Below are positions 3,665 through 36,116 of a stretch of DNA of 36,116 nucleotides, one piece after another (the stretch's first letter is position 1; every line of letters starts with the position of its first letter). The DNA lies in the NCBI GenBank assembly GCA_903884345.1, contig CAISEE010000056.1, forward strand, positions 1 through 36,116, read 5' to 3'. Below the pieces are notes generated by a model that was not told the origin of the DNA, searched no databases, and was given only the letters and a program-made list of their open reading frames with translations. Origin of the DNA: Candidatus Adlerbacteria bacterium (GTDB lineage: Bacteria > Patescibacteriota > Minisyncoccia > Phycocordibacterales > SBAW01). The translations under genes were made by a program, and so were the position numbers.

Positions 3665-3683
3665 GCGGAGGACTGTCCTCCGC
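3665..3683. repeat. Short palindrome, GGAGG-N5-CCTCC family
   Basis: Arms GCGGAGG and CCTCCGC surround the 5-nt centre ACTGT. The preceding CGACAT is shared with the copy at 4691-4709. No T-tract follows. Confidence 0.8.
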
Positions 3684-4690: not shown

Positions 4691-4709
4691 GCGGAGGTCG
4701 GTCCTCCGC
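4691..4709. repeat. Short palindrome, GGAGG-N5-CCTCC family
   Basis: Arms GCGGAGG and CCTCCGC flank the centre TCGGT; T and A extend the stem by one pair. The flank CGACAT is shared with the copy at 3665-3683. A decayed-looking stem (AAAAACCTCCGG with GGGCCGG, about 4632-4660) lies just before it. I see no gene between 4575 and 4755. Confidence 0.8.
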
Positions 4710-24001: not shown

Positions 24002-24038
24002 CCAAACTACGGAGGACGGACCTCCGCGTGGAGTTTGG
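24002..24038. repeat. Palindrome, GGAGG-N5-CCTCC family with an extended stem
   Basis: Core arms CGGAGG and CCTCCG flank the centre ACGGA (24010-24026). Outer arms CCAAACT (24002-24008) and AGTTTGG (24032-24038) extend the stem. Confidence 0.75.
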
Positions 24039-34901: not shown

Positions 34902-34907
34902 TATGCT
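34902..34907 (+). promoter_or_regulatory. -10 box for a leaderless mutY transcript
   Basis: TATGCT ends 7 nt before ATG 34915 and overlaps the ATG at 34903, which is thus less likely to be the start. Confidence 0.6.
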
Positions 34908-34914
34908 GGGTGCG

Positions 34915-35826
34915 ATGCAACCGCACAAATGGGAACTCAAGCAATTGGTGCGCGACGTGATTGCGTATCACGAAACGCACGGCCGCGACCATTTGCCATG
35001 GCGCAAAACCCGCGACCCGTACCGCATCTTGGTCTCTGAGGTGATGCTTCAGCAGACCCAAGTCGACCGCGTAATCCCCAAGTACGAGGCGTTCACCGCG
35101 GCGTTCCCCGATGCGGCAACTCTTGCTCACGCGAGCTTTCCGCAGGTCTTGGCGCTTTGGAGCGGGCTTGGATACAATCGCCGTGCCAAATATTTGCATG
35201 AGGCGGCGAAGATGATTCGCTCCGCAAAAACACTTCGCGGAGGAGAGATAAACACGACCCCAACTCCTCCGCGAAGTGTTTTTTCTCCGCTCTTGAATCT
35301 TGAATTTCTTGAGTCTCTGCCCGGCGTCGGCACCTACACCGCGCGCGCCGTCATGACCTTTGCGTACGATAGCGATGAGGTCTTCATCGAAACGAACATC
35401 CGCACAATTTTCACGCATTACCTCTTTTGCGGAGGACTGTCCTCCGCAGACTCGGCGGCGCAGCGGGTCGGGGATGCAGAGCTGCTGCCGCTTGTTGCAG
35501 ACGCTCTGGCGCTCGCAAAGCAGGCCGGACTCTCGCCGCGGGAGTGGTACGGGGCGCTGATGGACTTTGGCTCGCACCTCAAACGCCAGGGTTTGCGCAT
35601 CAATAACCGAAGTGCGCACTACGCCAAGCAATCCACCTTCAAAGGCTCGGCTCGCCAACTGCGCGGCATGATCTTGCGCGAACTCCTCAAATCCGCAGCA
35701 ACGCCGAACGCACTCGAGAAGGCGACCGCGCGCCCGATTACAGAGGTCGAACATGAACTCGCTAAATTGGTGAAAGAAAACGTGCTCACAAAAATAGGTA
35801 AAAAGTACTCGATCGCCAACGCATAG
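34915..35826 (+). CDS. mutY: MutY-type adenine DNA glycosylase without an iron-sulfur cluster, carrying palindromic inserts
   Basis: 303 residues from ATG 34915. MutY motifs are VSEVMLQQTQVDRV, LWSGLGYNRRAKYLHEAA and the HhH LPGVGTYTARAV. It removes adenine opposite 8-oxoguanine. The usual four FeS-cluster cysteines after the HhH are absent; the region reads LMDFGSHLKRQGLRINNRSAHYAKQS, as in CPR relatives. The residue at the catalytic Asp position appears to be Glu (FIETNIR). Two palindromic elements lie in frame: a 58-bp one (35226-35283) encodes TLRGGEINTTPTPPRSVFSP just before the HhH, and a 21-bp one (35428-35448) encodes CGGLSSA. It lacks an obvious MutT-like C-terminal domain. Confidence 0.85.
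   Translation: MQPHKWELKQLVRDVIAYHETHGRDHLPWRKTRDPYRILVSEVMLQQTQVDRVIPKYEAFTAAFPDAATLAHASFPQVLALWSGLGYNRRAKYLHEAAKMIRSAKTLRGGEINTTPTPPRSVFSPLLNLEFLESLPGVGTYTARAVMTFAYDSDEVFIETNIRTIFTHYLFCGGLSSADSAAQRVGDAELLPLVADALALAKQAGLSPREWYGALMDFGSHLKRQGLRINNRSAHYAKQSTFKGSARQLRGMILRELLKSAATPNALEKATARPITEVEHELAKLVKENVLTKIGKKYSIANA
35226..35283. repeat. Perfect 20-bp inverted repeat inside mutY
   Basis: AAAAACACTTCGCGGAGGAG (35226-35245) is exactly complementary to 35264-35283, with an 18-nt loop. It is in frame and contains no stop codon. Its inner arms include CGGAGG/CCTCCG as in the small palindrome family. Confidence 0.95.
35428..35448. repeat. GGAGG-N5-CCTCC palindrome inside mutY
   Basis: TGCGGAGG and CCTCCGCA flank ACTGT. 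The 19-nt core is identical to that of the intergenic copy at 3665-3683. Confidence 0.95.
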
Positions 35827-35878: not shown

Positions 35879-36067
35879 TCACGCTCGCGAGCGCTTCTTT
35901 TTTGGTAGCAAGCGTTTTCTTATCTGAATAGCTTTTCTTGATTTGCCATCCACCTGTACCCACGGGTCTGCGATGATATATTGGCGCCAGCCCTTACCCC
36001 GCGGCTTGCCGCGGGTTCCCTGTAGGAAAGTCTGAAAACCCTCGGTTTTCAGATATGATAGGCACAT
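35879..36067 (-). CDS. Small basic hypothetical protein, N-terminus uncertain
   Basis: About 62 residues from ATG 36067 (MCLSYLKTEGF). The last 40 residues (GKGWRQYIIADPWVQVDGKSRKAIQIRKRLLPKKKRSRA) are basic and look like a genuine conserved unit, and a good minus-strand terminator lies just beyond the stop. The first 20 codons run through the two hairpins upstream of the transposase (35998-36053), so the true N-terminus may have been replaced by the element or may start later with a non-ATG codon. I know no family. Confidence 0.4.
   Translation of the reverse strand: MCLSYLKTEGFQTFLQGTRGKPRGKGWRQYIIADPWVQVDGKSRKAIQIRKRLLPKKKRSRA
35998..36015. repeat. REP-like hairpin upstream of the transposase start
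   Basis: CCCGCGGC and GCCGCGGG form a perfect 8-bp stem around TT. Compare 105-127. Confidence 0.7.
36031..36053. repeat. Hairpin next to the transposase promoter
   Basis: TCTGAAAAC and GTTTTCAGA form a perfect 9-bp stem with a 5-nt loop, directly abutting the -10 box at 36054. It is a candidate left-end structure recognised by the transposase, or a regulatory hairpin. Confidence 0.65.
36054..36059 (+). promoter_or_regulatory. -10 box for a leaderless transposase transcript
   Basis: TATGAT ends 6 nt before ATG 36066. Confidence 0.65.
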
Positions 36068-36116
36068 GGGCGTCACCCGAAGCAACCACTGCGTCTATGA
36101 CACGCACTACCACGTC
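36066..36116 (+). CDS. N-terminus of an IS200-like (Y1) transposase (partial)
   Basis: Seventeen codons to the window edge: MGVTRSNHCVYDTHYHV. RSNHCVYDTHYHV is the usual first strand of Y1_Tnp transposases (H-VY---YHLV--TKYR), which cut and join single-stranded DNA with one Tyr and an HUH motif. The rest lies beyond the window. The two hairpins upstream fit an IS200/IS605 or REP-associated element. With the tail at 1-87 it suggests at least two such elements near this region. Confidence 0.75.
   Translation, partial: MGVTRSNHCVYDTHYHV

Follow-up and report, generated by a model that had tools for sequence, protein, structure and literature searches.

How two palindromes can lie inside a conserved protein gene and leave its reading frame intact is the question raised by mutY near one end of a 36,116-nucleotide contig of Candidatus Adlerbacteria, an ultra-small CPR bacterium. 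The whole of this stretch was analysed and is called the window below; its genome is denoted G000, and the related genomes carry corresponding numbers.

In-frame palindromes in mutY

The gene product was identified as an adenine DNA glycosylase by a HhH-GPD match in Pfam (1.2e-15) and by matches to solved adenine DNA glycosylases down to 8.4e-45. A first-pass annotation made from the letters of the DNA had placed a long and a short inverted repeat within its frame, and both were found exactly where it had put them, with the frame open through each. The features concerned are as follows:

34903–35826, forward strand: mutY, adenine DNA glycosylase, 307 aa, open across both palindromes; 34903 is the first in-frame ATG, and a later ATG at 34915 is also a possible start
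35226–35245, forward strand: 5' arm of the perfect stem, 20 bp, 100% complementary to 35264–35283
35264–35283, forward strand: 3' arm of the perfect stem, continuing into T6
35220–35289, forward strand: copy of the repeat here named element A, a full covariance-model match (77.2 bits, E 1.7e-16)
35242–35267, forward strand: conserved core GGAGAGATAAACACGACCCCAACTCC, in which GGAG/CTCC closes the 18-nt loop; mutY reads GEINTTPTP
35428–35448, no strand assigned: 21-bp REP palindrome TGCGGAGGACTGTCCTCCGCA, arms 35428–35437 and 35439–35448 around a 1-nt centre; mutY reads CGGLSSA

The large palindrome thus has a 20-bp stem and an 18-nt loop (35226–35283). Its perfect arm is not a product of chance at the composition of the window, since 60 dinucleotide shuffles of the window gave no perfect arm longer than 13 bp. 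When the protein was aligned to solved MutY structures, the segments encoded by both palindromes mapped to gaps. The residues encoded by the large palindrome, TLRGGEINTTPTPPRSVFSP, are extra relative to 33 of 36 relatives, as had been predicted; in the 36 aligned relatives, the extra segment of the window MutY, KTLRGGEINTTPTPPRSVFSP, sits between the helix ending AAKMI and the HhH motif LPGVG. A similar segment occurs among the relatives only in G012 (EMNTTPTPPR) and G008 (KTLRSGEIYRTPARKVF), where it is likewise encoded by copies of element A, with different arms. The sister genomes G005 and G012 offer the empty and the filled state of this site, and their mutY genes differ there by exactly 84 nt, or 28 codons. 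In MutY of G019, a copy of element A occupies a second site, which follows ETNIRTVF and corresponds to the position of the small palindrome in the window. For this small palindrome the earlier proposal stood in part: CGGLSSA is encoded by a repeat of the genome, and its insertion into mutY is likely but less clear, because the length of this MutY loop varies among relatives anyway. Large and small palindrome come from repeat families unrelated to each other, which the first-pass annotation had not recognised.

A dispersed hairpin with a shared core

The family of the large palindrome was detected through side matches of a protein search, in which MutY residues 95–135 matched places of other genomes outside mutY; these places are intergenic hairpins with the same core as in mutY. 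Element A is a dispersed hairpin of 60–70 nt, in which a core of ~26 nt (GGAG-AGATRAAC...-CTCC) lies between arms of 16–26 bp that differ among copies while staying complementary. Its most constant part is GGAG-AGATRWAC, and loops of 12–13 nt and longer were also found. The exact 20-bp arm of mutY, which had been proposed as the sequence to search for, is unique in the genome and was rejected as the repeat unit, the shared part being the core between the arms; it is this core that recurs, since each copy has arms of its own. Although the absence of the arm elsewhere had been named as a point against insertion, it does not refute it, since the arms are copy-specific and the core is shared.

The core GGAGAGAYRAACACGACCCCWACTCC, searched with up to 3 mismatches, was found at 38 places in 14 of 41 family genomes, against 1 for a reversed-pattern control. 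With an Infernal covariance model, element A was detected in 27 of the 35 genomes of the genus (Ca. Adlerbacteria and allies), at ~70 places and with 0 to about 12 copies per genome, and was absent from the other eight at E <= 0.01. Three copies lie in the window's genome, in mutY, at C23:1230–1293 upstream of a thioredoxin-reductase-like gene, and at C13:1680–1743. Another family of the order has an AT-rich version (...TTAGGGAGAGATRAACACYTATACTCCCA...) in two of its genomes, and a single genome from a different family of the class yielded a copy. When 84,980 species genomes were scanned for exact matches to one core variant, 30 hits were obtained, all in MAGs named Adlerbacteria, Kaiserbacteria, Ryanbacteria, Nomurabacteria or unclassified Parcubacteria/Patescibacteria, with no Rickettsiales among them. 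Rfam 15 contains no family for element A and gave only sub-threshold matches to microRNA-type hairpins. The family is apparently undescribed. At one locus of G027 (C24:8071–8215, L178), two short-loop copies are neighbours, oppositely oriented and separated by 20 nt.

Copies in frame within conserved genes

At least 25 copies of element A lie in frame inside conserved genes of at least 10 gene families:

MutY: four in-frame copies (G000, G008, G012, G019)
Tgt: seven in-frame copies (G004, G005, G008, G022, G025, G034; reversed in G030)
MPG: three in-frame copies (G005, G008; reversed in G002)
UvrC: two in-frame copies (G005, G009)
23S-rRNA-methyltransferase-like protein: three in-frame copies (G009, G020, G029)
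MnmA: two in-frame copies (G011; G608, of another family, at the same position in another frame)
TsaD: in-frame copy (G009)
LeuRS: in-frame copy (G012)
IleRS: in-frame copy (G034)
DusB: in-frame copy, reversed (G013)
ComEC: copy forming the C-terminus (G020)

Four reading frames are in use, giving GE(M/I)NTTPT, RRDEHDPNS, GVGVVFIS and SRAPVHLS, and both orientations occur, so that no peptide or frame is conserved within the family. A site is often filled in several species and empty in relatives. We propose that copies landing in frame in tolerant protein loops would survive as extra surface segments of predicted peptide, since four or five of the six frames of element A are open. The peptide itself would merely be tolerated and be neutral, given that neither frame nor orientation is conserved.

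We also considered that the hairpin might be transcribed and then skipped by byp-like translational bypassing or removed by splicing, so that the protein would lack the insert residues. Mobile hairpins skipped by the ribosome are known in Magnusiomyces mitochondria, according to a mention in PMC6649704. However, each copy found within a gene leaves one frame open across the junction, which neither process would demand, and the nameable neighbours of ten non-coding copies with same-strand or adjacent gene pairs are different genes, not split halves of one. We regard bypassing or splicing as extremely improbable.

All genes with an internal copy (ten families for element A; rnhB and tnpA for the REP palindrome) encode nucleic-acid enzymes, with tRNA modification, aminoacyl-tRNA synthetases, DNA repair and rRNA methylation among the classes hit. 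In an ungapped alignment of 38 copies of element A (A1), the copies with complete pairing beside the core, which have no TCC/TCC internal loop, all lie in genes (8 of 8), versus 8 of 30 of the rest (Fisher p 2.6e-4, kinship ignored); the copy in the window is of the fully paired type.

Copies outside genes

Most other copies lie a few nt from a stop codon, several of them between convergent genes, and copies recur in the ftsZ–trxB gap of several species. Such placement would suit a functional RNA or DNA hairpin, chiefly a terminator or protein-binding site, whose core is kept for a role in cis and whose in-gene copies act as attenuators. The A-rich and T-rich arm ends give terminator anatomy on both strands, and the mutY copy also has the anatomy of an intrinsic terminator, as its 3' arm runs into T6. 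Against this stand the copies within the coding regions of unrelated genes, in either orientation, the eight genomes of the genus without a copy, and the low copy number per genome. Together with the scarcity of G-U pairs described below, these observations make a functional hairpin unlikely in our judgement. If element A is instead a mobile hairpin, the copies that do not enter protein loops would settle directly after stop codons.

Four intergenic copies are found just upstream of a thioredoxin-reductase-like gene (L184 at G000:C23:1230, L103 in G002, L098 in G012 and L163 in G025), and those of G012 and G025 adjoin ftsZ. Two close copies in G021 were considered as the ends of a larger transposon, and this was rejected, as no transposase lies between them; by inspection, the intervening genes are metal-binding protease-like and VKOR-like ORFs.

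Filled and empty sites in the Tgt loop

The Tgt loop between SKF and YDEE has 18–19 aa and no hairpin in 13 genomes, and in the remaining genomes it holds element A or other long hairpins. Sister genomes differ here, G035/G030 and G017/G022 being empty/filled pairs. On a tree of MutY plus Tgt built with the inserts left out, several forks of which are weak, the states of element A require 7 changes for 7 copies in Tgt and 3 for 3 at MutY site 1. Judging from these sequences, either the Tgt loop was hit repeatedly, or states were lost and exchanged between genes.

Core and arms do not behave alike at this site. The inner arms of the G030 copy are the same as those of G004 and G008 (CAAAAG...CTTTTG), and its core is reversed; the core in MPG is likewise inverted between G002 and G008. 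The outer 5' arm of the G008 copy matches the empty G006 gene in register at 12 of 13 positions (shuffled p < 0.005), and that of G030 matches an empty gene in register at 12 of 14 (p 0.005), whereas the 3' arm does not match in either case. Host-derived outer arms are significant in only these 2 of the 7 Tgt copies, the other five being uninformative. Pre-existing palindromic target sites were rejected, as the empty Tgt genes contain no comparable hairpin.

Other hairpins are present in the same loop. Tgt of the window's genome carries a different in-frame hairpin (L218, C37:5420–5454) with the core GGTCTGGCCGAGCnnAGCGAGGAGAACCGAGGACC, which is common to two places in G024 (L276, L278) and, in degenerate form, to G014 (L239). 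It is possibly a second family of coding palindromes on this sequence evidence, but it is not established as a dispersed family, because the core used as a search pattern gave only 3 matches in 2 genomes. Tgt of G027, G021 and G028 (L233, L220 and L234) contains long perfect hairpins without a known core, with arms of 18 bp in G028. These coreless hairpins suggest that the Tgt loop is a general hotspot for hairpin insertions.

Paired changes in the arms

Stems maintained as RNA normally change via G-U pairs. In A1, 22 of 26 pairs have changed on both sides, and 187 double-change cells were counted versus 64 in shuffles and 47–80 in slid controls. In a larger alignment of 83 places (A2), 501 double Watson-Crick changes stand against 22 single changes to G-U; A2 was fitted to the model, and a few places may appear in it twice on opposite strands and inflate these counts, which does not affect A1. 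Since changes to G-U are nearly absent, unlike in stems selected as RNA, the sequences point to a process at the DNA level behind the arm changes. Multi-base compensation, stem extension and inverted loops are described as signatures of template switching (PMC8794818, PMC8604942), and the double changes seen here, together with the inverted loops and the extension of stems into host sequence, would form such a signature. We therefore propose that, after insertion, template switching between the arms during replication would keep the arms perfect while rewriting them, and would sometimes lengthen them into host DNA and invert the loop.

Template switching might even be the whole explanation, with short inverted repeats arising and growing in protein loops as a mutational by-product and no mobile element involved. 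Coreless long hairpins at the same Tgt loop (G021, G027, G028), and the other core shared by G000, G014 and G024, fit this account, and coding palindromes of Nematomorpha mitochondria have been explained by template switching (PMC6649704). The 26-nt core is, however, common to unrelated genes and genomes, so template switching within a gene explains the arms and not the core. For element A this account is already contradicted by the shared core, and we consider it very unlikely overall; it may still apply to the coreless Tgt hairpins.

The small palindrome and the search for a mobiliser

Apart from mutY, the small palindrome is found at three further places in the window, none of them assigned to a strand:

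3665–3683: second exact copy, in no recognised gene
4691–4709: variant with 2 mismatches, outside long ORFs
24009–24027: variant with 3 mismatches

With up to 3 mismatches, the 19-bp palindrome gives 8 strand-matches in the window, against 0.01 expected by chance. On another contig of the same genome, a Y1-type transposase gene of the RAYT kind (G000:C43:42094–42996) is flanked by six copies and contains another one in frame (KYGGRSSA). The gene rnhB (ribonuclease HII) also has an in-frame copy. By its sequence, the small palindrome at 35428–35448 is the REP of this RAYT (Y1/HUH) transposase. As in described REP/RAYT systems (PMC2817692, PMC3116915), small palindromes cluster around a Y1/HUH transposase gene; REPs are extragenic by name, whereas mutY, rnhB and the transposase gene itself all carry in-frame copies here. 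TTA (TTACGGAGG) often stands before the copies, in place of classical GTAG/CGTC-type tags. Of the 35 genomes of the genus, 26 contain RAYT genes, and short palindromes of different sequence flank them. At the end of the window (36066–36116), the contig breaks off within an IS200-type transposase-like ORF, of which only the start is present (MGVTRSNHCVYDTHYHV). Two hairpins precede it at 35998–36053 (CCCGCGGC/GCCGCGGG and TCTGAAAACC/GGTTTTCAGA), and the TCTGAAAACC hairpin also accompanies a complete IS200-like copy in G028.

We rejected the idea that element A serves as REP to a RAYT, as a model search gave no clear match at 30 RAYT loci, the best two matches (E 0.014 and 0.04) being unrelated short hairpins. 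Y1 transposases are present in 23 of 27 genomes with element A versus 3 of 8 without it (Fisher p 0.015, kinship ignored), indicating a loose association; G012 and G022 carry copies, yet gave no Y1 transposase hit. No target-site duplication was detected at the mutY site of the one pair compared, G005/G012, and neither a transposition event nor an excision product was seen for element A. Transposition would account for the spread of the element, most likely in the form of a folded single-stranded hairpin on which a nuclease or transposase acts.

Discussion

Our data make it probable that element A is a small mobile hairpin, non-autonomous and specific to its lineage, which persists in tolerant loops in the way of Rickettsia palindromic elements (RPEs). 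More tentatively, we advance as a serious possibility a new class of mobile coding palindrome in CPR bacteria, in which template switching rewrites the stem at every site and leaves only the loop to be inherited. A structure-reading hairpin enzyme would move such a palindrome, which would repeatedly enter the same loops in aminoacyl-tRNA synthetases and in enzymes of tRNA modification and DNA repair, adding surface segments to them in any frame or orientation.

To our knowledge, in-frame palindromic insertions are described as near-unique to Rickettsiales and are known mainly from Rickettsia and Wolbachia. RPEs were reportedly described by Ogata et al. in 2000 and 2002, and protein-coding palindromic repeats of Wolbachia reportedly in 2005. 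Like these repeats, element A consists of small dispersed stem-loop palindromes that lie in intergenic regions and in frame in conserved protein genes of a reduced genome, and no transposase is assigned to either. It is a dispersed palindromic repeat of one lineage whose in-frame insertions have empty counterparts in relatives, as expected of an RPE. RPEs are about 105–150 bp long and combine a conserved peptide with short, perfect inverted repeats (PMC2229807, PMC10969869); the identity between their repeats is reported to decay over time, as cited in PMC6649704. Element A, in contrast, has 60–70 nt, no conserved frame or orientation, arms that vary yet remain complementary, and a CPR bacterium as host. 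By analogy, it works like RPEs but is a different family, set apart by the peptide frame; to the extent of the exact core scan, its sequence appears unrelated. The palindromes of Nematomorpha mitochondria (PMC6649704) are also perfect inverted repeats in protein genes, with arms kept perfect and template switching proposed as the cause; unlike element A, they share no mobile core, have arms of up to 142 bp that both encode conserved protein, and belong to animal mitochondria.

Small non-autonomous repeats with open frames, some fused in frame to genes, are also found among bacterial MITEs, which element A resembles in these respects. MITEs such as ERIC, Correia/NEMIS (107 bp) and YPAL have fixed terminal inverted repeats and usually target-site duplications; the arms of element A are copy-specific and no duplication was detected in the one pair checked, which sets it apart from them.

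The first-pass annotation knew of no in-frame palindromes of this kind in CPR bacteria, and no description was found in the open-access literature. Their presence in an unrelated, uncultured phylum with minimal genomes would make this route to new protein segments a general one. Filled and empty orthologous sites number in the dozens, the core being constant and the arms, frames and orientations different; they amount to a natural experiment, which would allow a direct test of whether template switching or RNA selection keeps the hairpins perfect, and of whether the inserts are neutral.
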